Source: a virus
DNA length: 40,908 nt
Reading direction: 5' to 3' (one strand)
IMG/VR virus record: IMGVR_UViG_3300030202_003533
Coordinates: 1-40,908 of that record
A program made the translations under genes and the position numbers. Numbering within the stretch: position 1 is the stretch's first letter; every line of letters starts with the position of its first letter. This document shows, one piece after another, positions 13,004-36,525 of this stretch. The notes under the pieces are model-generated. The model did not search any database. It was not told the origin of the DNA and was given only the letters and a program-made list of their open reading frames with translations.

Positions 13004-14698
13004 ATGTCAACTATCGTAGAAAGTTTAACAAAAGACATCGTTAATCGTGACCTCCAAGCCGAAGGCGCTGCTCTTCTCAATAAATGGGAGAAGACTGGAC
13101 TTCTAGAAGGTCTCGATAATGATAGAACTAAGAACGGCATGGCTCGTCTCTTAGAGAACCAAGCAAAGGAGCTTCTCCGTGAAGCTTCATCCATGGCTGG
13201 TGGTGATGTAGAGGGCTTCGCAGCCGTTGCATTTCCAATCGTTCGCCGTGTATTCGGTGGTCTCATCGCTAATGAGCTAGTCTCAGTACAGCCAATGAGT
13301 CTACCATCAGGTCTAATCTTCTTCTTAGATTTTACCTTCACTGACACCAAGGCTGGCGTAACTGCCGGTGAGTCAGTTTACGGCGGTGGTCGTGTTGCTA
13401 GCCAAATCACTGGCGGTCTTAATGACATCACAGAAGAAAGTGGTGGTCCATACAACCTACAGACCGGCTATGCTTCACCAACTTCTAGCTTCGAAGCAGC
13501 ATTGACTGAAACACTAGCCACTACTCAGGTTAGTGCTCTTACTGATGCACAGAAGACTCTTCTTCGCTGGGATCCAGATCTCTTGGCTGAGACTACTGAC
13601 TTTGTTGAGCAGCACACATTTACTGTTCCAACAGATTTAAACTTGGACGAAGTTATTTCGCTTCAAGAGTTCGGCGAAGGTATCGCACTAGGTAATGCTG
13701 GTGTCGCATGCGACATCGTTCGTAGATTGACTTCAGTTGATGCTGCTGGTACAACAGCAACAATCACTCTCAAGAAGGCTACTACTATTGGTGCAGTTAA
13801 TGCAATCACAGGTACTTACAACCGTAAGGATCACTTTGAAGCTTCTGGAATCGGCGGCGTTGCCGGCGGTGCTATCTGGGGTCTTGAAGGTGCTGGTACC
13901 GGTGCTGACTTCAACGGTCGTACTGTTAATGATGATATCCCAGAGATCGACATCAAAGTTGACTCCATCGCTGTAACAGCAGTCACCAAGAAGCTCAAAG
14001 CTAAGTGGTCCCCTGAGCTAGCTCAAGACCTCAATGCTTACCACAACCTCGATGCAGAGGTTGAGCTTACTAGCATTCTCTCAGAGCAGATTGCTCTAGA
14101 GATTGATAATGAGATCTTACATGACCTTATCGAAGGCGCCACTGCCGGTACTAAGTACTGGAGCCGTCGTCCCGGTAAGTTTGTAGATCGCGACACAGGT
14201 GTCCAGGTCGGTGCAACAACTGCTGCTCCTGACTTCACAGGTACTGTTTCTGAGTGGTACGAGACATTAGCCGAGACTATCAATGATGTCTCAGCTAACA
14301 TCCACAGAAAGACACTTCGCGGTGGTGCTAACTTCGTAGTTTGCTCCCCAGAAGTTGCTAACCTCCTAGAGTTCACCGCTGGTTTCCGTGCAACGGTAAA
14401 TCACGAAGAGCTAAAGGGTGGTGAGATTGGTGCTGTTAAGACTGGTTCACTAAGCAAGAAGTTTGACGTATACGTCGATCCATACTTCCCACGCAATGTG
14501 ATTCTAGTTGGTCGTCGTGGCAATAGCTTCTTAGAAAGCGGCTACGTCTACTCACCTTATGTCCCACTACAGGTCACACCTACCATCTTCGGTGTTGAGG
14601 ATTTTGTACCCCGTAAGGGCGTCATGACCCGCTACGCCAAGAAAATGGTTCGTCCTGACATGTACGGCTTAGTTGTTTGCCAAGATCTAATTGGTTAA
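13004..14698 (+). CDS. gp23: major capsid protein (gp23-like)
   Basis: 564 residues, close to T4 gp23 (521). Conserved features include FPIVRRVFGGLIANELVSVQPMSLPSG (in overlapping parts at about 77-104), EIDIKVDSIAVTAVTKKLKAKWSPE, LDAEVELTSILSEQIALEIDNEI, and VGRRGNSFLESGYVYSPYVPL near the end. The N-terminal propeptide is expected to be removed by gp21; LLREA at 57-61 fits its hydrophobic-x-Glu rule and lies about where T4 is cut. The ribosome binding site AAAGGAGG is the strongest in the window, fitting the most abundant virion protein, and codon choice looks more biased than in neighbours. A terminator follows. Confidence 0.97.
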   Translation: MSTIVESLTKDIVNRDLQAEGAALLNKWEKTGLLEGLDNDRTKNGMARLLENQAKELLREASSMAGGDVEGFAAVAFPIVRRVFGGLIANELVSVQPMSLPSGLIFFLDFTFTDTKAGVTAGESVYGGGRVASQITGGLNDITEESGGPYNLQTGYASPTSSFEAALTETLATTQVSALTDAQKTLLRWDPDLLAETTDFVEQHTFTVPTDLNLDEVISLQEFGEGIALGNAGVACDIVRRLTSVDAAGTTATITLKKATTIGAVNAITGTYNRKDHFEASGIGGVAGGAIWGLEGAGTGADFNGRTVNDDIPEIDIKVDSIAVTAVTKKLKAKWSPELAQDLNAYHNLDAEVELTSILSEQIALEIDNEILHDLIEGATAGTKYWSRRPGKFVDRDTGVQVGATTAAPDFTGTVSEWYETLAETINDVSANIHRKTLRGGANFVVCSPEVANLLEFTAGFRATVNHEELKGGEIGAVKTGSLSKKFDVYVDPYFPRNVILVGRRGNSFLESGYVYSPYVPLQVTPTIFGVEDFVPRKGVMTRYAKKMVRPDMYGLVVCQDLIG

Positions 14699-25827: not shown

Positions 25828-26172
25828 ATGGCTATATCAAGATACAGAAATTCATTACAGTTTATAAATGCCACCGAAGGCTATCGAAAGGCTTTTAAAA
25901 AAAGGTATGGCGAGCTTGGTATTAGGCAATTGCCTGTCACTTTGCTGAAATATCCAAATCAAATCGAGTATAATGATATAGAAACGACTTCTGTTGTTTG
26001 GAAAAGGGGCGATAGGTTTTATAAACTGGCTAGTGAATATTATGGCTCTCCAGAATTGTGGTGGGTTATCGCTTGGTTCAATGGCAAACCAACTGAGCAG
26101 CATGTAAGCTTGGGCGAGATAGTACAGGTACCTCTGTTCTTAGACGAAGCATTAAGTATTTTTGGATTATAA
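25828..26172 (+). CDS. gp53: baseplate wedge protein with LysM-like fold (gp53-like)
   Basis: 114 residues. The C-terminal half reads VWKRGDRFYKLASEYYGSPE then LWWVIAWFNGKPTEQHVSLG and EIVQVPL. This is the LysM-like pattern (GDRxYxLAxxYYGxxxLWWVIAxxN...GxxIxVP) seen in gp53 of T4-like phages and similar tail proteins. The N-terminal half (residues 1-45) is basic, with YRKAFKKRYGELGIRQLP. It is shorter than T4 gp53 (196). It probably locks baseplate wedges or binds near the cell wall. Confidence 0.75.
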   Translation: MAISRYRNSLQFINATEGYRKAFKKRYGELGIRQLPVTLLKYPNQIEYNDIETTSVVWKRGDRFYKLASEYYGSPELWWVIAWFNGKPTEQHVSLGEIVQVPLFLDEALSIFGL

Positions 26173-26173
26173 C

Positions 26174-28924
26174 ATGAGCAATTCTTCTGAGTCTTCACTA
26201 AATTTATTTTTCCCACTATCAAAAGGCGGGCTTAATAAGCAGCAATTTATATCGGACATATTCGCACCTCAAATCAATAGAGGCACAAATTTGGCAAATA
26301 GGTCTGGTATAGCTAAGGTCTTATATGATGAGAAATTCCCTCTTCAATTATGTAGAAATCTGCCAGAAGACGATTATAACATTCTAAAGGTTGTAAGGGA
26401 AAAAGGCAAAGAGCATATTGTCTCTTTCAATCCAAATTTCTATCAAGAATTTGAAGAGGCATATTCTGCAAACAAAGAGACAAACCTTGTAGAGCAGAAC
26501 AAATATAATGAATATGTAAAGTTTATGACTAAAATCGGGACAACAGAACTAGCTGTTTTGCAACCCTTTATCAAGCTTATCTACAGATATAGAAAAAATA
26601 AGGGCGACGACTGGTCAGAATTCGTTGTACCATTCCCTTCTTTTACAACTGAAGAAGAGTTCATGCCAATCTTAAGTTCAAAATTCGCAAGAGGCGATGG
26701 CTGTGGTATTGAATCTGTTACAACACAAAGAGAATTCCCGCAATTTGGTAACTTTTTGCATGTTAAAGCAAACATAAGCTTTTATTTTCAAAATCTAGGC
26801 ATCTTGACAAGAGAGTTAAAATTTCCAAACAGAGAACTACCAACTCCATTTAGTTTCTTAAAAGTAATGGCTCCCTTATCTCAAGAGACAGAACAAATCG
26901 TGTTGGAGTACGGGTATTCACTAAACACTAAATTTACAGACCCTACTATCATTCCACCTGGGATTCAAGAAGAAATTTTAAGAAGAGAAAGAAAAAGATT
27001 TATTTTAAATTACTACAAACATAATTTTGATATTGAACAGAATGGTTCGGTAAGACTCACAGTTGATTACACATCAAAACAGGATTTTGATTTATTAAAA
27101 GAAACCAGTGATATTTCCATTACTGAAAACATTCCAGAGATAAATTCTCTTTCTACTGAGAACCCGCAGATTAAAAAGTTTATTCAGTCTTACACTGAGA
27201 AAAGAAAAAAGAGAAAAGAAATAGAAAAATCGATAAAAGAATCTAGATTGCAGGTAAAGAAAAGAAAAGGTGCAGCTAGAATTAGAGGTCAATCACAACA
27301 GACAAATCAAATATTAAAGTTAGAAAAGAAAGTTAATATAGAAAAAAAGCAATTAAAAACATTAAATACGGAAATTAATAGTCTTAAAGATAAACTATCT
27401 TTGTATGTAAAGCCCAATTTTCTTGATAGCATGATAGCCCATATGGAAGTTTTTAAAATAAACTTTGCTACAAAATCAACAACTTCAGACAATGATAATA
27501 ATAGAAGCTTCTCCATGAAGGCATTTTTGAATTTAGTCGTAAAAGACAGAGTTACTAAAGGGTCGTTAAAAGATATTTCTCTCTATGAGATTCCAACCAG
27601 CTTCTCAGTTTCAGATTTTAAAGATAACATTATTTTAAGTTCGATGGAAGGGGTCAATTCAAAACAAAAAGAAACTTTAATAGATAACCTTGCTGGTTCT
27701 TCTTTCAATGCCCCGAAAGGTCTTAAGACCACCTCTACAGGAGATAAAAAGTTTGGTGATATAGTATTTTTCCCCGTTAGAGCCTTGATTGCAGCCGCAT
27801 ATAGGCAGCTTAATGAAAGCGATAGAAAAACTGCACACTTCACAAGCTTAGGCAATGTCAATGCTAGATCTTTGGGCAAAGAGTATGTTATAAATATTGG
27901 CGATGTTTTGGTGGAGCTAACCTACTTTCAAAAGTGGTTTTACGAACACTACACTAAAAAGGGTAGATTAATTTTTACTTTAGGCGAATTTGTGGAAGAT
28001 GTCGTGAAGAAACTAGTGCCCTCTATTTTAGAGGATAATACAATAGACACCTTTGGTAAAACAAGGATGGGTTCAATACAGAGAACCAACTATCTGACTG
28101 AAATGCAGCCTGGACCACAAACGAGAGGGTTGTTTAGAGATGTTTATCACACAGTAAATAAAGAATCACTTAGACAATTATCAGGCAGGGTAAAAAGGAC
28201 TTCAGAAACTAGAACCAGAACTGATGTAAGAACATTTGTTCATTATTCTCTAGTAAGAAATCCAAGCTCACCAATTGGCAGTGCTTATCTAAAAAGAAAG
28301 GTTGCTGACACTAATTTCAGAGAAGATAACGATATTCAGTTTGGTTGCCCTCACATTAAGATTGGTGCTGATGAAGGCTTGTTGAAAAATATTAGTTTTA
28401 CAGCAAATGATTTTGCCGGCATGAGAGTTGCTCTGTGGGCTGAGAATCTTAGAGACACAGCGACAAACTTATTAAGATATCATTATTCTGCGAATGTTGA
28501 AACCATTGGTAATAATGTATTTTTTAAAGGTGGGTTTTTTGGTATTCCATCTAACCTATTGGGTATTGAAAATGACGATTTCGATCCTGGTATCTCTGGA
28601 TATTATGCGATCCAAAGAGTCAACGATTCAATTAGTTTGGGCAATTATACAACAAATTTGACAGCGACTTGGTTCTGGCACCCAAGGCAGGCTAAGGCTA
28701 AGGGCGGCGAGTCTGTAAAAGATGGACAGAATAGAACTAATGACATTCCACCAACAAGAGTTGGTTTATCACTAACAAACTATTTTGAAGAAATATTAAG
28801 ATTGGATGCCGATACTTTAGCTAAATATGGTATCGGTCCAGGCACATCTATTTCAAGGGCTGATATAGAAGAGGCTAAGGGCACACAAAAAGATGTATTT
28901 AAAGATATTAAGGAGAATTTCTAA
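26174..28924 (+). CDS. large baseplate/hub protein, function inferred
   Basis: 916 residues from ATG 26174; an earlier TTG at 26162 overlaps the previous gene and was not used. No named family is recognised outright. The N-terminal 320 residues are mixed alpha/beta. A strongly charged coiled coil spans about 330-405 (EKRKKRKEIEKSIKESRLQV, KLEKKVNIEKKQLKTLNTEI). The C-terminal domain ends GISGYYAIQRVNDSISLGNY then TTNLTATWFWHPRQ, the type of ending found in hub proteins of contractile tails (YxVxxVxxxIxxGxYxTxL). Size and position among baseplate genes support a hub or arm component. It abuts the next gene with no gap. Confidence 0.72.
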   Translation: MSNSSESSLNLFFPLSKGGLNKQQFISDIFAPQINRGTNLANRSGIAKVLYDEKFPLQLCRNLPEDDYNILKVVREKGKEHIVSFNPNFYQEFEEAYSANKETNLVEQNKYNEYVKFMTKIGTTELAVLQPFIKLIYRYRKNKGDDWSEFVVPFPSFTTEEEFMPILSSKFARGDGCGIESVTTQREFPQFGNFLHVKANISFYFQNLGILTRELKFPNRELPTPFSFLKVMAPLSQETEQIVLEYGYSLNTKFTDPTIIPPGIQEEILRRERKRFILNYYKHNFDIEQNGSVRLTVDYTSKQDFDLLKETSDISITENIPEINSLSTENPQIKKFIQSYTEKRKKRKEIEKSIKESRLQVKKRKGAARIRGQSQQTNQILKLEKKVNIEKKQLKTLNTEINSLKDKLSLYVKPNFLDSMIAHMEVFKINFATKSTTSDNDNNRSFSMKAFLNLVVKDRVTKGSLKDISLYEIPTSFSVSDFKDNIILSSMEGVNSKQKETLIDNLAGSSFNAPKGLKTTSTGDKKFGDIVFFPVRALIAAAYRQLNESDRKTAHFTSLGNVNARSLGKEYVINIGDVLVELTYFQKWFYEHYTKKGRLIFTLGEFVEDVVKKLVPSILEDNTIDTFGKTRMGSIQRTNYLTEMQPGPQTRGLFRDVYHTVNKESLRQLSGRVKRTSETRTRTDVRTFVHYSLVRNPSSPIGSAYLKRKVADTNFREDNDIQFGCPHIKIGADEGLLKNISFTANDFAGMRVALWAENLRDTATNLLRYHYSANVETIGNNVFFKGGFFGIPSNLLGIENDDFDPGISGYYAIQRVNDSISLGNYTTNLTATWFWHPRQAKAKGGESVKDGQNRTNDIPPTRVGLSLTNYFEEILRLDADTLAKYGIGPGTSISRADIEEAKGTQKDVFKDIKENF

Positions 28925-30223
28925 ATGTCTAAGACTCCTTTTGCAAACAAAAATTCTAATACAAAAGAATTGTATAAAAGCAGAGAGATATACGAGGAAT
29001 TTTATCCAACTGATATAGACCAGTTTGACTTGTGGAATAATTTACCTTTATATGGTAGAGTGGATAATGAGGGTACAACAGTTTTCCCGAGGGAATCAAA
29101 GCTCGTTTATATTACCCAGTCCAGCGATAAAAAACAGCTAGCAGTCTTAAACTTTGTTGCAGATGCTTTTCGAAAAATGAGAGAACACTATAAAACAATT
29201 TTTAGATTAAATACTGAGGCAGGTCCAACAAGATTTTTTTCAAGCACTCTAGAACCAACTAGAGCATGGGAAAGCCCTGTAATTGGATATAATGTTTACA
29301 TACAGTCAATATATGATGACTTTTACTCTAATGTTTTAGTAGATTTGGAACAAAGTGATAAAATTAAAAACTTTAAAGATTTCACAAATTTATTATTTGA
29401 GTATATAAGACAAAACGGAAAAGCCTTTACTAGAATGGCATATGGAGAATCTGGGAAATCAACTGTTTTAAACACTGGGTTGGCTATTGAAATATACCCT
29501 GGCGACTATGGGGATGACAAGTTATCCGCCTCTTTTGTCAATGATCCCAACTTCCCAATTTATCAAGAACTATGTAGAAAATACGGATTTAAAATTGATA
29601 GGAATATTCCGTGGAGGATTGTAGCAAATCTTCGGAGCAATAACTTGTCTCCTTTTATAAAAGAGAAGTTACAGAATAACTCCGACAACACGATTAAAAA
29701 TATATTTACAGAATTTTACATTTCATGTGATGGCAACGAATATTTTGAAGAATTTATAACTTACTTAAAAGGATTTTATGCGACTTTTTACCAAGCTAAT
29801 AAACAGTATAAACAAAGTGTGTTCAACTCTGATAAACTTTGTAATGGTATAAGTTACAAATTGGTTAATAGACAAAGCCCAAGTTCAGAAGAGACAACTT
29901 TGCCTTTACTAGAGAAATTAATTCTTTTTTACAAGTTTAGATTGGCAGAATTAAATTTAAAAGCAAGTACAAAAAGACAGTCGTTTCACTTAAAAAATGT
30001 TACTGCGATTGTTAAATCACTAAAAAATGAAGAACTGGCTACAAAAAAAGCTCTTGAATATATTAAATATAATCTAGGTACGGCTGCTTTCCGCGAGGTA
30101 CCACTCTCCCAAAATAACTTGACAAGATCTAACGATGGTGTTATGATGTCTGCACAGGATCAGTTCGATAAAAGAACTGGCGAAAACAGCAGGTATATAA
30201 CAGATGATCTTTCAGGTCCTTGA
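28925..30223 (+). CDS. virion-operon protein of unknown function
   Basis: 432 residues, alpha/beta, with a disordered lead (MSKTPFANKNSNTKELYKSR). A basic, Asn-rich middle includes FKIDRNIPWRIVANLRSNNL. A helical C-terminal half follows, with an end region LTRSNDGVMMSAQDQFDKRT and GENSRYITDDLSGP. No motif I can name. It continues the baseplate block, so a structural role is likely. It is the last late-type gene before the replication block, and its 3' end contains a sigma-70 promoter and overlaps the DNA polymerase start by 20 bases. Confidence 0.75.
   Translation: MSKTPFANKNSNTKELYKSREIYEEFYPTDIDQFDLWNNLPLYGRVDNEGTTVFPRESKLVYITQSSDKKQLAVLNFVADAFRKMREHYKTIFRLNTEAGPTRFFSSTLEPTRAWESPVIGYNVYIQSIYDDFYSNVLVDLEQSDKIKNFKDFTNLLFEYIRQNGKAFTRMAYGESGKSTVLNTGLAIEIYPGDYGDDKLSASFVNDPNFPIYQELCRKYGFKIDRNIPWRIVANLRSNNLSPFIKEKLQNNSDNTIKNIFTEFYISCDGNEYFEEFITYLKGFYATFYQANKQYKQSVFNSDKLCNGISYKLVNRQSPSSEETTLPLLEKLILFYKFRLAELNLKASTKRQSFHLKNVTAIVKSLKNEELATKKALEYIKYNLGTAAFREVPLSQNNLTRSNDGVMMSAQDQFDKRTGENSRYITDDLSGP
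30119..30147 (+). promoter_or_regulatory. sigma-70 promoter for the replication block, inside upstream gene
   Basis: TTGACA at 30119-30124, a 17-base spacer, then TATGAT at 30142-30147. It lies within the 3' end of the 28925 gene and 57 bases before the polymerase ATG. The match is 11 of 12 to consensus. It would let early RNA polymerase start the replication genes apart from the late virion operon. Confidence 0.7.
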
Positions 30224-31394
30224 TAACAAGATTGAGTGTGTTGGCTACTACAGTGCCGGCAAAATTTATAAAGAAGATGTTGGTCACAACTTTACTCAAA
30301 CTTGGGATAGTTCTCCAAACTTTATGTCTAAAGCTGTAGACTATGCTAAACTTTATGCGGGTGTGGATAGTATAGATGATGTGCCACTGCCTGACCACCT
30401 CCACACTGAATGGCGGTCCTCTACAAAACGGATGAAGGCATTTATTAATTCACTGAGAAAAGCAAAAGTTAGTTTAGATGATCACTGTTTTTATGACTTG
30501 GTACCAGATAAGTTCCTAACTGACTTCTATGAAAACAAAACACAGGTTACAGATTTTGTCTTTAAAAACTTTAGTAAGCCAGCCAACTATGATTTTCTTA
30601 AGGATGTTAATTTGCTATTAGCTAAGATCGCTGGTCAAAAACTTATCGTTGATAAGAGCAAGCTAAACCAGCGATTCATGAAGAAAACAGACTTTGTTGC
30701 GGCTCAAAAGTTCTTGAACAGCACTGACAAAATCAGCTATAATATATTTAAAAGCAAGACTGGTCGCCTTTCAACACAGAAAACTAGCTTTCCAGTCTTA
30801 GCTTTTGATAAAAGATTTCGGCAGATTTTGAAGCCACATAATCACTGGTTCTTAGAGCTAGACTTCAATGCGAACGAACTTCGTGTTTTACAAGCTTTAA
30901 ATGGTGTAGAACAGCCGAAAGAGGATATCCACGACTGGAACATCAAGAATATATTTGGAAGCGATACAGAGCGATCTGATGCGAAGAAGAGGGCATTTGC
31001 TTGGCTTTACAATCCAAACTCACAAGATACGGCAATGAGCAAGTTTTATGATAAGGAAAAAATCCTATCAACATATTACAGAGATGGTATCATCACAACA
31101 CCTTTTGATCGCAAGATTGCCAGTGATGACTTCCATGCTCTAAACTACTTGATTCAAAGCACAGCATCTGATGTTTGTTTGAAACAAACCCTCAAACTGG
31201 ATAAGCTTTTAGAGGGCAAGAAAAGCTACATCACAGCAGTGATCCATGATTCAGTTTTGATCGACTACGATGAGGAAGACAAAGATATCTTAAAAGAACT
31301 GGTTTCTACATATGGTAAAACTAGCTTTGGAGATTTTAAAGTTAATATTTCAGTTGGATTAAACTACGGAGAAATGAAAGAACTATGCAGGTAA
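30204..31394 (+). CDS. short family A DNA polymerase
   Basis: 396 residues, polymerase core only. Family A motifs are clear: TGRLS at 186-190; motif A LELDFNANELRVL with Asp220; motif B R257-x3-K261-x3-F265-x3-Y269-N270 (the O-helix pattern, with Asn for the usual Gly); a segment ALNYLIQSTASDV near 312-323; and motif C VIHDS at 346-350, where the usual HDE is HDS. No 3'-5' exonuclease domain (DEDD motifs) is visible in the first 130 residues, and the length is far below E. coli Pol I (928) or T7 (704). T4 itself uses family B gp43. Its neighbours are the tubulin-like gene, gp32 and UvsX, so it is likely the phage replicase or an accessory polymerase. Confidence 0.87.
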   Translation: MIFQVLDNKIECVGYYSAGKIYKEDVGHNFTQTWDSSPNFMSKAVDYAKLYAGVDSIDDVPLPDHLHTEWRSSTKRMKAFINSLRKAKVSLDDHCFYDLVPDKFLTDFYENKTQVTDFVFKNFSKPANYDFLKDVNLLLAKIAGQKLIVDKSKLNQRFMKKTDFVAAQKFLNSTDKISYNIFKSKTGRLSTQKTSFPVLAFDKRFRQILKPHNHWFLELDFNANELRVLQALNGVEQPKEDIHDWNIKNIFGSDTERSDAKKRAFAWLYNPNSQDTAMSKFYDKEKILSTYYRDGIITTPFDRKIASDDFHALNYLIQSTASDVCLKQTLKLDKLLEGKKSYITAVIHDSVLIDYDEEDKDILKELVSTYGKTSFGDFKVNISVGLNYGEMKELCR

Positions 31395-32224
31395 TTGGGA
31401 TTGGTACAGGAGGGTGTCAGGTTGCAACTGATCTGGCACAATATGGTGTTTATGATATCATTAATGTCGACACATCTTTTAAGGTTGAATTAGATGATGT
31501 GATAAACATTGAGCTTGAAAGGCAAGAAACTTTCAAAGAGTATGAGACAGAAACAAAGCTTGACATCCGCAGCGAAATAAAGTATAATAGTGTACATGTG
31601 TTTTTGTTCGGAGGAGGAAAAACCACCGGTTCAGTTCTTAGAATTTTAGAAAAAATTAAAGATAAAAAAATTACGATACACTATATCAAACCAGAAAAAA
31701 ACTTCTTATCGGCTAAACAAAAGTTAAGAGAACGAGCCATATGTGGTATACTACAAGAGATGGCTAGATCTGGAGTGTTCAATAGAATGTATCTTTACGA
31801 CACATCTAAAATCTTAGAAGGACAAGAGGTTGCTTTTCTCAAGAAGAAAGACCATGTTTCAAAAACAATAGCGGGAATGTTTCACACGATTAACTTTACA
31901 AAAAACACTGAAGACTTATTTTCAAATGTTGAGGATCCAATGGAAGTCAATAGAATTGCTACGATTGGTACGGTTAATCCAGAGGATGGAAAGGAGGTAT
32001 TGTATTTTCCTCTTGACAGCATCCGAGAAAAGTGTTACTATTTCGTTATGAGTAAATCAGCACTGGAGACACCCGGTGTTATAGAAAAAATAAATGACCA
32101 AATAAAAGAAGAAAATGAACAATCTTCTTTTAAGATTATAGAGTCAGACTGGTCAGATAATCATGTTTATATGGAAGCATTTACAAATGTTGTCCAGATA
32201 ACCCAAGAAAAAACGGAGGAATAA
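31385..32224 (+). CDS. FtsZ/tubulin-like GTPase-fold protein
   Basis: 279 residues that line up along their length with FtsZ. VIGIGTGGCQVATDL (3-17) matches the first nucleotide loop (VIGVGGGGxNAV), and INVDT (26-30) matches AVNTD. VHVFLFGGGKTTGS (70-83) matches VFxxAGMGGGTGTG. ITIHYIKPE (97-104) matches LTVAVVTKPF. LRERAICGILQEM then MYLYDTSKILE matches the SLIxIPNDKLL region. VSKTIAGMFHTIN with NTEDLF corresponds to helix H7 and the T7 loop, but NxDxxD is not preserved. The C-terminal part CYYFVMSKSALETPGVIEKI resembles the second FtsZ domain. The G-box (GGGKTTG) is altered. It may form filaments that position phage DNA, as PhuZ does in other phages, or have lost GTPase activity. It overlaps the polymerase gene by 10 bases. 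Confidence 0.68.
   Translation: MQVIGIGTGGCQVATDLAQYGVYDIINVDTSFKVELDDVINIELERQETFKEYETETKLDIRSEIKYNSVHVFLFGGGKTTGSVLRILEKIKDKKITIHYIKPEKNFLSAKQKLRERAICGILQEMARSGVFNRMYLYDTSKILEGQEVAFLKKKDHVSKTIAGMFHTINFTKNTEDLFSNVEDPMEVNRIATIGTVNPEDGKEVLYFPLDSIREKCYYFVMSKSALETPGVIEKINDQIKEENEQSSFKIIESDWSDNHVYMEAFTNVVQITQEKTEE
31560..31588 (+). promoter_or_regulatory. perfect sigma-70 consensus promoter inside the tubulin-like gene
   Basis: TTGACA (31560-31565), 17 bases, TATAAT (31583-31588): a full 12 of 12 match. It lies at codons 59-68 of the tubulin-like gene, on the sense strand. A transcript from here would cover the rest of that gene and continue into gp32. Coding constraint does not demand this sequence, so it is probably functional. 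Confidence 0.65.
32013..32041 (+). promoter_or_regulatory. sigma-70-like promoter upstream of gp32
   Basis: TTGACA (32013-32018), 17 bases, TACTAT (32036-32041), in the 3' part of the tubulin-like gene and about 184 bases before the gp32 ATG. It is a good match apart from two -10 positions. With the 31560 site it would give gp32 two internal promoters. Confidence 0.52.
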
Positions 32225-32971
32225 ATGGGTATTGATCTTAAAAAAATGCGGCAAAAGTTGTCCGATCTACACAACAAGGGCGGTAACGGCAATGGTGTTA
32301 AGTTTTGGAAGCCAGTTGACGGAGAGAATGTTATTCGCATTCTACCTTCACCAGATGGTGATCCCTTTAAACACTTTCACTTTCACTACAATGTAGGGGA
32401 GAAGGCAGGCTTTTTGTGCCCAAAGAAGAACTTTGGTGACGATTGTCCTGTGTGTGATTTTGTGTCTAAACTTTACAACGATGGTGATGATGAATCACGG
32501 CAGTTGGCTCGTAAGCTTGTAGCAAAGAGTCGCTTCTTCTCACCAGTTGTTGTTCGCGGAGAAGATAATGAAGGTACTAAGGTTTGGGGTTACAGCAAGA
32601 CAGTCTATGAAAACTTGCTACAACTAGTTCTAAATCCTGACTATGGTGATATTACAGATGCCGATGCAGGCACCGACCTAGCTTTGGTTTACGGCAAAGC
32701 CCCCGGTGCGATGTTCCCATCCACTAATATTACTGCCCGTCGTAAGACATCTAAGATTTCGTCCGATGATGCTCTTATGAAGGAGCTTATGGAAACTGAA
32801 ATCGACTTTGATAAGATTTTCGAAGTTAAGACTAAGGAAGAGGTTGCTGCTATTTTAGACAAGTTCCTACTTGGTGAAGATGGTGGTAACGACTCTGATG
32901 GAGTTGTTGTTACAGATAAGTCGGGAGGTTCATCCGTTGATGATGCTTTCAAGGACTTACTAGCTAGCTAA
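32225..32971 (+). CDS. gp32: single-stranded DNA-binding protein (gp32-like)
   Basis: 248 residues (T4 gp32 is 301). It has a basic N-terminal B-domain (GIDLKKMRQKLSDLHNKGG) for cooperativity, then FWKPVDGENVIRILPSPDGD. A zinc site H52-x12-C65-x8-C74-x2-C77 (CPKKNFGDDCPVC) follows, closely matching the T4 H-C-C-C spacing. An OB-fold core comes next, and an acidic tail ends SSVDDAFKDLLAS for protein contacts. It coats ssDNA in replication, recombination and repair, and sits between the tubulin-like gene and uvsX. The SD GGAGG lies just before ATG 32225. A very GC-rich hairpin follows the stop. Confidence 0.95.
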   Translation: MGIDLKKMRQKLSDLHNKGGNGNGVKFWKPVDGENVIRILPSPDGDPFKHFHFHYNVGEKAGFLCPKKNFGDDCPVCDFVSKLYNDGDDESRQLARKLVAKSRFFSPVVVRGEDNEGTKVWGYSKTVYENLLQLVLNPDYGDITDADAGTDLALVYGKAPGAMFPSTNITARRKTSKISSDDALMKELMETEIDFDKIFEVKTKEEVAAILDKFLLGEDGGNDSDGVVVTDKSGGSSVDDAFKDLLAS

Positions 32972-33018: not shown

Positions 33019-34134
33019 ATGGCAAAAGCGACAGCAATTGGTCGGTTAAACATAGCCGACATGAAAAAGTTAATTAATAAAAAAGCAGGAACTAATGTAG
33101 CATTCTCATTAGCAGAAGATAACCCAACAGAGGTTAACCAATTTATTCCAACTGGATGTAAATGGCTTGATGGTATTATCAAAAGAGGCACATGGGGTGG
33201 CATTCCTGTAGGAAAGATAAGTGAGATTGCCGGTTTGGAAGCAACTGGTAAGTCTTACATGGCAGCACAAATCGCTGGCAATGCTCAAAGAATAGGAATA
33301 GATGTAATCTATTTTGATTCAGAGAACTCTATTGACCCAGAGTTTTTGGCAAATGCTGGTTGTGATATTGAGAAGTTGCTTTATGTACAAGCAAGTTCGG
33401 TAGAGTTTGTGTTAGAAACTATTGAGAGTCTGTTGGCTAACAATGATAGTCAAATGCTTTTTATCTGGGATAGTATGGCTTTAACTCCATCGGTATCAGA
33501 TATTGAATCAGACTTTAATCCGTTATCAACAATGGCGGTAAAGCCTCGTATTCTATCAAAGGGTATGGCAAAGCTAATTCAGCCAATCGCTAACACCAAG
33601 TCAACTCTGCTAATTCTAAATCAGTTAAAAACTAACATCACTAGAAACACAGCAGAGGCTCTTACGACTCCTTACTTCGCACCGGGAGGCAAAGCTTTAG
33701 CTTATTCTTATTCTTTAAGAATCTGGTTAACTGCTCGTAAAGGTAAGTCGTCTTTTATCTTTGATGAGAAGGGATTTAGGATTGGTACCGAGGTTAAAGC
33801 GAAGATTCAGAAGTCTCGTTTCGGAACTCAAGGTCGTCAATGTAATTTTAAGATCTTGTGGGCTGGAGATGAAGTAAAAATTATGGATAAGGAAAGTTGG
33901 TTTGAAGCCGTTAAGTCGTCTGATAAACTAACAAATGCTGGAGCTTGGTTCACTCTACATCATGAAGATGGATCAAAAGATAAGTTCCAGTCAAAGCAGT
34001 GGATAAATAAATTACAAGAAGAGAAGTTTTACAACAGAGTCATTGAATTGTTGGAAGAAGAAGTAGTAATGAAGTTTGATAAAAGAATTGGAGACTCAAG
34101 CGACTTCTATGAAGATACAGAGAAAAAGAAATAA
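33019..34134 (+). CDS. uvsX: UvsX/RecA-like recombinase
   Basis: 371 residues from ATG 33019, chosen for its GGAGG SD; an upstream in-frame TTG at 32989 lies inside the hairpin. The RecA fold is clear: PTGCKWLDGIIKRGTWGGIP (44-63), Walker A GLEATGKS (72-79), VIYFDSENSID (96-106) with the catalytic Glu, and Walker B QMLFIWDSMAL (145-155). A DNA-binding loop region lies near ITRNTAEALTTPYFAPGGKA. It promotes strand exchange in recombination-dependent replication with gp32 and gp46/47. A promoter and terminator element follows. Confidence 0.95.
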   Translation: MAKATAIGRLNIADMKKLINKKAGTNVAFSLAEDNPTEVNQFIPTGCKWLDGIIKRGTWGGIPVGKISEIAGLEATGKSYMAAQIAGNAQRIGIDVIYFDSENSIDPEFLANAGCDIEKLLYVQASSVEFVLETIESLLANNDSQMLFIWDSMALTPSVSDIESDFNPLSTMAVKPRILSKGMAKLIQPIANTKSTLLILNQLKTNITRNTAEALTTPYFAPGGKALAYSYSLRIWLTARKGKSSFIFDEKGFRIGTEVKAKIQKSRFGTQGRQCNFKILWAGDEVKIMDKESWFEAVKSSDKLTNAGAWFTLHHEDGSKDKFQSKQWINKLQEEKFYNRVIELLEEEVVMKFDKRIGDSSDFYEDTEKKK

Positions 34135-34223: not shown

Positions 34224-35171
34224 ATGGAAAGAATTATGATCGTAGACATGTTAAACATGTACTACAGAGCCTACATCGTTGATCCTTCGTTGTCTTCAAA
34301 CGGACAACCAATCGGAGGAATCAAAGGCTCTTTAAAAATTTTACAAAAGTTATGTAGAGAGATTAGACCAACACAGGTCTATATTTGTTGGGATGGTCGT
34401 GAAGGCTCATCCAAGCGGAGGAAGATTAATAAAGGGTATAAGGAAGGGCGAAAGCCTATCCGGCTGAACCGAAGTGTTAAGAACATGACAGAGAAGCAAG
34501 AAGCACAGAATAAGATCTGGCAGATGATTAGGCTCGCTGAATACTTCAATCAGTTGCCACTTTGCCAAATCAACATTGACTACTCTGAAGCCGATGATAT
34601 TATCGGAGCTTTAGTCAAGAGGTTCAAAGATAAAGAGAAGGTGATCGTATCAAGCGATAAAGACTACTTCCAACTATTGGATGAGTCAACACTTCTGCTT
34701 CGTCCAACACAGAAACAGATCTTAAATAAGAATAATATTTTAGAAGAATACAATATTCACCCATCAAACTTCGCACTTGCGAGGGCTATCGTGGGAGATA
34801 AGAGTGATAACCTGCCCGGTGTAAGAGGCATTGGACTCAAGACAGTAGCGAAAAGAATGCCTTTTTTGAAGGATAAAGAAGATTGCCTCTTGAAAGATGT
34901 GTTCGAATCTGCTATAGTAGAAGACCGATTTTGGGAAAAGATAACAGAGCACAAAAGTTTGATTGAAGAAAACTATAAAGTTATGAATCTAGGAACTGTC
35001 TTTCTATCTCCTCAGAATACAAGGGTGATTAAAGAGTCGGTAGAGAACTACCCACTAGAGTTCGCTCGCACTGAGTTTATTAAAATGATGATGCAAGACG
35101 GATTTGCTGAATTAAACTGGGATGATTTGTATTCATCCATGAACCGTATAAGGATTGCTAATGCTAAATAA
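34224..35171 (+). CDS. rnh: 5'-3' exonuclease / RNase H (FEN family)
   Basis: 315 residues, near T4 RNase H (305). Metal-binding acids of the PIN/FEN fold are visible: D8 in IMIVDMLN, D57 in YICWDGR, E122/D124/D125 in SEADDII, D145/D147 in VSSDKDYFQ, and D192/D195 in GDKSDN. The helix-hairpin-helix GVRGIGLKTVAKR (199-211) binds DNA. The KRRKINKGYKEGRKP segment matches the FEN arch region. It removes RNA primers and flaps from lagging strands. It is insulated from uvsX by its own promoter and terminator and overlaps the helicase gene by 11 bases. Confidence 0.95.
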   Translation: MERIMIVDMLNMYYRAYIVDPSLSSNGQPIGGIKGSLKILQKLCREIRPTQVYICWDGREGSSKRRKINKGYKEGRKPIRLNRSVKNMTEKQEAQNKIWQMIRLAEYFNQLPLCQINIDYSEADDIIGALVKRFKDKEKVIVSSDKDYFQLLDESTLLLRPTQKQILNKNNILEEYNIHPSNFALARAIVGDKSDNLPGVRGIGLKTVAKRMPFLKDKEDCLLKDVFESAIVEDRFWEKITEHKSLIEENYKVMNLGTVFLSPQNTRVIKESVENYPLEFARTEFIKMMMQDGFAELNWDDLYSSMNRIRIANAK

Positions 35172-36525
35172 AGATTTTTCAAAGTTTGGAAAACATTTCC
35201 AAGAGAACTTGGTACAGATTATGTTCGAAGACAGAGCTTTCTGTGATCAGGTTGGAGAGGTCTTTAAAGCAGAGTTCTTAGAACAAAAGTATCTTCAGCA
35301 GTTTGTTGATAGGTTGTTTGGTTACAAGGCACAATACAAGACACACCCGTCTTCACAGGCTTTTTCAACAATCCTGCGAACAGAACTGGATGAATCTAAT
35401 CCAATCTTAGTTAAGCAAGTCCGTGATTTCTTTGCTAGGATTCAAGCAAACCCCGCTGTAAATGATGAAGAATATGTTAAGCACACATCATTAGACTTTT
35501 GTCGCAAGCAAAAGCTAAAAGAAGCTCTAATGAAGTCTGCGAACTTACTTCAAAAGGCTAGCTTTGATGAGATATCAGTTCTCATTAATGAGGCTTTAAA
35601 GTTAGGTTCAGACAATTCTTATGGGTACGATTACAAACTTGATTTTGAAAAAAGGTTTGTACTAACACACAGAGATCCAGTTTCAACAGGCTGGGATCTA
35701 ATTGACAAGATTAGCAAAGGCGGTTTAGGAGCAGGTGAGTTGGGTGTTGTTATTGCTCCAACTGGAGCAGGCAAGTCAATGGCTCTTGTCCACTTGGGCA
35801 CACGAGCTTTAGTTGAAGGCAAGACAGTAGTCCACTTCACACTAGAGTTAGGTGATACTGTTGTCGCAGGTCGTTATGATTCTTGTTTAACAGGGATTCA
35901 CCTAAAAGATCTTTATCATCGTAAGGACGATATCTACGATGAGGTAAAAGATGTTAAGGGCAATGTGATTGTAAAAGAGTATCCAACTAAGTCAGCTTCT
36001 GTCTTAACATTGAGAAACCATCTTAGTAAGTTACAGAACCGTGGGATTGAGATTGGAACAATCATTGTAGACTATGCTGACCTTTTGAAACCAACTGGAA
36101 ACAATTATAATGAAAAAAGAATTGAGTTAGAGACGATTTATGAGAACTTGAGAGGGCTTTCTCAAGAGTTTAAATGTCCTATTTGGACTGCCTCACAAAC
36201 AAATCGTGGGGGATTAAATGCGGAAGTTATTACAATGGAAAGTATTTCTGAAGCATTCAACAAATGTTTTGTCGCAGACTTCATATTTACTCTATCTCGA
36301 ACAATCGAGGACAAGAATGTTAACGCGGCTAGAATGTTCGTAGCAAAAAATAGAAATGGACCAGACGGACTTGTTTATCCAATGAAGATGGACACATCCA
36401 ATGTTTTATTGGAAGTCTTAGAGCCGGATGGTAATTCCATTACAGATATTAATAAAGAAGCTGCTAAGAACCAAAAGCAAAAATTAGCCGATATTTACAA
36501 GAAATTTAAAAAGGAGAACAAATAA
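35161..36525 (+). CDS. gp41: replicative DNA helicase (gp41-like, DnaB/RecA-fold)
   Basis: 454 residues from ATG 35161 with an AAGGA SD at 35149-35153; a TTG 6 bases earlier is less likely. The N-terminal helical domain (1-150) is followed by STGWDLIDKISKGGLGAGEL and Walker A APTGAGKS (199-206). Next come VHFTLELGDTVVAGRYD, Walker B region GTIIVDYADLLK, and PIWTASQTNRGGL. The C-terminal loops include FIFTLSRTIEDK. It unwinds the fork as a hexamer and works with a primase not seen here. It starts inside the FEN gene and its stop overlaps the next ATG (TAATG). Confidence 0.93.
   Translation: MLNKDFSKFGKHFQENLVQIMFEDRAFCDQVGEVFKAEFLEQKYLQQFVDRLFGYKAQYKTHPSSQAFSTILRTELDESNPILVKQVRDFFARIQANPAVNDEEYVKHTSLDFCRKQKLKEALMKSANLLQKASFDEISVLINEALKLGSDNSYGYDYKLDFEKRFVLTHRDPVSTGWDLIDKISKGGLGAGELGVVIAPTGAGKSMALVHLGTRALVEGKTVVHFTLELGDTVVAGRYDSCLTGIHLKDLYHRKDDIYDEVKDVKGNVIVKEYPTKSASVLTLRNHLSKLQNRGIEIGTIIVDYADLLKPTGNNYNEKRIELETIYENLRGLSQEFKCPIWTASQTNRGGLNAEVITMESISEAFNKCFVADFIFTLSRTIEDKNVNAARMFVAKNRNGPDGLVYPMKMDTSNVLLEVLEPDGNSITDINKEAAKNQKQKLADIYKKFKKENK

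Follow-up and report, generated by a model that had tools for sequence, protein, structure and literature searches.

What is known of phage tubulins comes mostly from jumbo phages of the phiKZ type and from partition systems of the plasmid type. The dynamics of PhuZ-type tubulins depend on hydrolysis, and the hydrolysis-dead mutant PhuZ D190A still polymerises with GTP and forms stable filaments (PMC4244570). The gene described here, FtsZL, lies on a stretch of 40,908 nucleotides (positions 1 to 40,908 of the IMG/VR record IMGVR_UViG_3300030202_003533, hereafter the window) that carries genes for DNA replication and for T4-type virion proteins (Table 1). In addition to Gp23, the contig encodes a Gp20 portal and a T4-type terminase and is therefore T4-like, in agreement with a preliminary description that had assigned the gene to the replication block of a T4-like phage. 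The open reading frame and the motifs GIGTGGCQ, GGGKTTG, KPE and SKILE named in that description were all recovered, KPE at residues 102-104 and SKILE at residues 141-145. The FtsZL and polymerase frames overlap by 10 bases in the window, and the replication cassette also includes a class II RNR after the DnaB-type helicase. At only 396 aa, the polymerase corresponds approximately to a family-A polymerase domain by itself, and it has no close relative among isolated phages. Two large proteins, of 920 aa (26162-28924) and 432 aa (28925-30223), are encoded directly upstream of it and accompany the cassette in most loci; neither has a Pfam match or a convincing PHROG match.

Table 1. Features of the window around FtsZL, with residue numbers referring to FtsZL
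Feature	Position	Strand	Evidence
FtsZL, FtsZ/tubulin-fold protein, 279 aa	31385..32224	+	ORF with ATG start, AlphaFold2, Foldseek, homologues, dN/dS
T1 nucleotide loop GIGTGGCQ, residues 5-12	31397..31420	+	G5, G7 and G10 nearly invariant (82 sequences)
T4 (G-box) loop GGGKTTG, residues 76-82	31610..31630	+	Alignment columns and counts; GSGxISG in most of the family
Thr140, slot of the guanine-contacting Asn (FtsZ N166, tubulin N206)	31802..31804	+	hhalign, Asn-to-Asn
H7 positions 155/159 (FtsZ F183/D187, tubulin Y224/N228), Lys/Ser in the window	31847..31861	+	hhalign
H7-S7 connection, residues 174-190, site of the T7 loop/H8 in FtsZ; acidic pair D184/E187	31904..31954	+	Model secondary structure, motif counts
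Tubulin-type C-terminal domain, S7-S10 with H10, residues 191-267	31955..32185	+	Model; full-length FtsZ alignment
Family-A DNA polymerase, 396 aa, directly 5' of FtsZL	30204..31394	+	Pfam DNA_pol_A 5e-16
gp32-like single-strand DNA-binding protein (SSB), directly 3' of FtsZL	32225..32971	+	Pfam gp32 1.1e-17
UvsX/RecA recombinase	33019..34134	+	
5'-3' exonuclease	34224..35171	+	
DnaB-like replicative helicase	35155..36525	+	
T4-type major capsid protein Gp23	13004..14698	+	PF07068 E 1.7e-62

Pfam, NCBIfam and PHROGs assign no family to FtsZL. A Pfam search with the single sequence returned ThiF alone (E 0.019), phmmer with the single sequence found no match in the PDB, and Pfam Tubulin (PF00091) was seen in only 3 of 35 members, with a best E of 0.007 and no record above the curated cut-off. 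The single-sequence searches yielded no usable match, and the likeness to FtsZ is not visible from one FtsZL sequence. Profile-profile comparison gave scores of 42.4 with PhuZ, 41.7 with FtsZ, 32.5 with TrkA_N and 28.0 with ThiF, where the yardstick, FtsZ against PhuZ, scores 74.8 and seven unrelated families of the cassette reach at most 21.0; a single hhalign comparison of FtsZL with FtsZ gave an E of 8.6e-5. The sequence-level signal is thus modest when taken alone, and the claim of an FtsZ/tubulin relationship is carried by the predicted structure. An AlphaFold2 model built on 82 aligned relatives reached a pLDDT of 92.7 and a pTM of 0.91; an earlier, shallower model (13 sequences, pLDDT 65) had already indicated FtsZ in Foldseek. 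When the deeper model was compared with the PDB, the best 50 matches were all FtsZ or CetZ (E 2e-12 to 6e-9), with TM values by query length mostly of 0.65-0.73 and at most 0.73 among these 50, at an identity to FtsZ of 12-17%. Among predicted viral structures, the best matches were PhuZ-type tubulins and two phage proteins, one named FtsZ and the other 'cell division protein'.

The order of elements in the model matches that of FtsZ and is S1-H1-S2-S3-helix-S4-H4-S5-H5-S6-H6-H7-S7-S8-H10-S9-S10, comprising a Rossmann-type N-terminal domain, the central helix H7 and a tubulin C-terminal domain. H8 is absent and H9 is no more than a short turn (224-227). The preliminary description had proposed a tubulin/FtsZ fold complete with its C-terminal domain, and both AlphaFold2 and Foldseek point the same way. 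The notion that FtsZL is a plain Rossmann-fold protein of the ThiF, TrkA or dehydrogenase type, resembling FtsZ in its first loop only, draws on the weak ThiF and TrkA matches of the single-sequence searches. It is barely credible and is refuted in silico, given a confident model with the complete tubulin C-terminal domain, best 50 PDB matches that are FtsZ or CetZ throughout, and TrkA and ThiF profile scores below those of FtsZ and PhuZ. As judged by its modelled fold, FtsZL represents a new and diverged branch within the known tubulin/FtsZ superfamily.

Relatives of FtsZL in IMG/VR include close ones at 66-95% identity and more distant ones at about 27-35%, and a broader alignment comprises at least 595 FtsZL-encoding stretches. 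The gene is carried by marine T4-like viruses of bacteria that make up a large, uncultivated group. The long records (102-185 kb) contain exactly one copy each (10/10), and recoding of TAG in FtsZL records was considered and rejected, as TAG serves as an ordinary terminal stop. No match to FtsZL was found by tblastn among the isolated phages of INPHARED, and searching 50,697 phage records by tblastn with the consensus produced chance matches only (E 4 and above). A candidate homologue in Rhodothermus phage RM378 was likewise rejected, its best E being 0.07 in a chance-like local match. One bacterial genome record, the WOR-3 MAG chromosome CP070664.1, encodes FtsZL surrounded by g432, polA, gp32 and uvsX, and these neighbours identify the segment (2243228-2260037) as phage sequence inside the MAG, from a phage that is either integrated or mis-assembled. 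No description of the family was found in the open-access literature, which leaves out most subscription papers, and the Far-T4 phage literature examined does not mention FtsZ or tubulin.

The position of FtsZL is highly constrained. In loci found with FtsZL itself, the polymerase is encoded directly upstream in 81/90 and gp32 directly downstream in 96/100. To guard against circularity, a reverse scan was seeded with the polymerase, yielding 80 loci, 78 of them with a readable flank; all 78 encode FtsZL downstream, and in 70 it occupies the expected interval. The eight apparent exceptions did not hold up, as all have FtsZL, one gene further or overlapping more deeply. The expectation that the gene would stand beside the polymerase and gp32 genes of related phages is thereby borne out. 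The start of FtsZL overlaps the polymerase stop in 71/91 loci, mostly by 10-13 bases. About one locus in three has ~320-400 bases between FtsZL and gp32, a gap that may accommodate a small additional gene. This gene order places FtsZL in a replication operon with the polymerase and SSB, with which it is presumably co-expressed.

The nearest isolate by Gp23 is Flavobacterium phage immuto, whose Gp23 is 49% identical in the aligned parts. Its genome has polA, SSB, recombinase, exonuclease, DnaB helicase and RNR in the order of the window, but the slot of FtsZL is taken by two unrelated small ORFs of 151 and 171 aa. The possibility that these represent a split FtsZL was tested and rejected. Because FtsZL was not found in immuto, in about 112 kb searched of its 160-kb genome, or in RM378, it appears restricted to one lineage: it is a fixed gene of a lineage next to Far-T4 and not of T4-like phages at large. 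The presence of other ORFs in the same slot of a similar cassette further indicates that not every such phage requires its function. For relatives of the Far-T4 phages, hosts among marine Bacteroidetes are plausible (PMC7198788). Immuto has a short family-A polymerase similar to that of the window and a second, longer one. It also shares with the 484-kb phage LR756508 a small unknown protein encoded between polymerase and SSB (L283:1346-1801, L286:21785-22174), in the slot that FtsZL fills in the window lineage.

That FtsZL is locked between the polymerase and SSB genes hints that these viruses assemble a tubulin-like scaffold where their DNA is copied. The same arrangement, fixed beside polymerase and SSB with a frame that overlaps the polymerase in most loci, would also suit a non-polymerising subunit of the replisome, a nucleotide-sensing accessory that would bind the polymerase or the SSB and might serve, for instance, in processivity or regulation. 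This is the main rival to a scaffold, and we judge it somewhat unlikely. The T7 loop and H8, which serve hydrolysis and form part of the filament interface, are missing, as such a subunit would allow, and PF02916 detected no gp45-type clamp in 10 long records, a slight hint at most because diverged clamps are easily missed. The members of the tubulin superfamily that FtsZL matches in structure are, however, polymer-formers.

Residue equivalences between FtsZL and FtsZ were assigned from sequence alignment together with the order of secondary structure. With hhalign, Asn140 of the family falls on the Asn after S6 of FtsZ (N166) and Asn159 on the H7 position D187, and the aromatic residue four positions before Asn159 pairs with FtsZ F183. 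A second phage FtsZ family, described below, shows the same Asn-to-Asn pairing with FtsZL. In tubulin, guanine is contacted by N206, Y224 and N228, which we take to be equivalent to these FtsZL positions. In a docking study of FtsZ, N166 and F183 contact GTP (PMC10020519). In the main family of FtsZL, Asn140 and Asn159 are each found in 112/112 members and Y, F or H at 155 in 105/112, so that, residue by residue, the pocket still has the appearance of a guanine-nucleotide site, and most members probably bind such a nucleotide.

The window belongs to a different group, a single branch with 100/100 support and a long stem that comprises 11 of 123 members. In all 11, residue 140 is T, A or V, 155 is K, and 159 is A or S. 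Because the contacts in question are common to FtsZ and tubulin, their loss in this clade is the simpler reading, and with both Asn residues and the stacking aromatic gone, the window FtsZL may not bind guanine. The protein has nevertheless been maintained: dN/dS within this clade, which lacks the base contacts, is 0.14-0.19, and FtsZL is therefore kept by purifying selection. The T4 loop also sets the clade apart, as it reads GSGxISGA in the main family and GGGKTTG is peculiar to the window clade; neither agrees with the GGGTG[ST]G signature of FtsZ, TubZ and PhuZ. The GGGKTTG that the preliminary description reported at the G-box position is correctly placed, but it characterizes the window clade and not the rest of the family.

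The T7 motif N-x-[DE]-x-x-[DE] is present in 1/123 FtsZL members, as opposed to 26/26 FtsZ sequences, so the canonical NxDxxD is indeed lost, as had been claimed. The further reading of FtsZL as a completely dead GTPase is less certain. Among PhuZ sequences only 1/10 carries the strict motif, and its absence alone is consequently no proof of a dead enzyme. In addition, 68/123 members have an acidic pair at 184/187 in the H7-S7 connection, and residue 187 is acidic in 102/123. The persistence of these residues leaves room for slow hydrolysis by a rebuilt site.

Alternatively, FtsZL might build a dynamic, cytomotive filament and so position or segregate phage DNA during its replication, like PhuZ of the phiKZ-like phages and plasmid-borne TubZ. 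This would be consistent with the shared fold, with PhuZ-type proteins among the best viral structure matches, with the conserved guanine pocket of the main family and with the acid at 187, which could replace that of T7. Such a PhuZ-like spindle is less likely without the T7 loop, and we consider it improbable: the canonical motif and H8 are missing while PhuZ dynamics require hydrolysis (PMC4244570), the window clade is without base contacts, and there is no long C-terminal extension as in PhuZ. More improbable still is an antagonist of host FtsZ, a protein that would imitate a subunit, cap or poison the host filaments and block division. With its FtsZ fold and no catalytic loop, FtsZL might in principle be incorporated into such filaments and cap them, but it is locked in the replication operon and not among host-takeover genes, and its low identity to FtsZ makes co-assembly unlikely.

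The reading we prefer, tentatively and at rather less than an even chance, is that FtsZL forms a tubulin-like scaffold where the phage replicates its DNA, with slow hydrolysis or none. Its subunits would associate head to tail, as in FtsZ and PhuZ, and the resulting protofilaments would be short or stable, with hydrolysis slow or absent given the loss of the T7 catalytic loop and H8. Polymerase, SSB and recombinase would be gathered on the phage DNA by this scaffold, which would hold the replication site together as a static support rather than as a dynamic pushing spindle. The stable GTP-dependent filaments of PhuZ D190A make a static tubulin scaffold physically reasonable. On the other hand, the missing T7 motif and H8 are parts of the longitudinal interface of FtsZ, and FtsZL may therefore not polymerise. 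In the window clade the structural role would probably be kept, and the loss of the base contacts suggests that nucleotide control there is altered or lacking. More broadly, it comes close to an even chance that a tubulin-fold protein, possibly non-hydrolysing, now belongs to the core replication machinery of a large T4-like lineage, one sublineage of which gave up guanine recognition, and that it serves as a replisome scaffold or polymerase partner and not as a dynamic filament.

A separate and much diverged branch of tubulins is a fixed replication-operon gene in widespread mid-size T4-like phages. Two questions become testable: whether T4-like phages of ordinary size organise their replication with a tubulin-like protein, and what a tubulin fold still does without the catalytic loop and, as in one clade, without the guanine contacts.

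Among known systems, FtsZL resembles FtsZ and CetZ in the two-domain fold over its whole length and in the glycine-rich T1 and T4 loops, and its main family further resembles FtsZ in having Asn at the N166 position and a polar residue at the D187 position. It differs from both in being shorter, in being without an NxDxxD T7 loop, H8 and a clear H9, in a T4 loop that reads GSGxISG or GGGKTTG in place of GGGTG[TS]G, and in its location in a phage replication operon. PhuZ, like FtsZL, is a phage-encoded member of the tubulin superfamily, with a local profile match to FtsZL from T1 to T4 (E 4.7e-5) and, for Noxifer PhuZ, a structure match (E about 1e-4). The phiKZ PhuZ gene, however, lies outside any polymerase-SSB cassette, BLAST finds no sequence match between PhuZ and FtsZL, and PhuZ retains an acidic residue in T7 as well as a C-terminal tail that serves filament assembly (PMC4244570).

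The second FtsZ-like family of marine phages also belongs to the tubulin superfamily and matches FtsZL by profile (E 4.1e-5), but its profile is plainly FtsZ-like (hhalign against FtsZ 1e-11), and it has GGGGGTGSA and is encoded outside the replication cassette. Its representative, a protein of 364 aa with a Pfam Tubulin match of 3e-6 that falls below the cut-off, is encoded on the minus strand (L366:1887-2981, about 103386-104480 of G041, IMGVR_UViG_3300025131_009739), in the same 166-kb record as an FtsZL. This family occurs in 1/10 long FtsZL records and has at least 107 IMG/VR relatives, on contigs of up to 281 kb, and none in INPHARED. FtsZL differs from the known phage tubulins in its active site, its gene context and the phage lineage that carries it.
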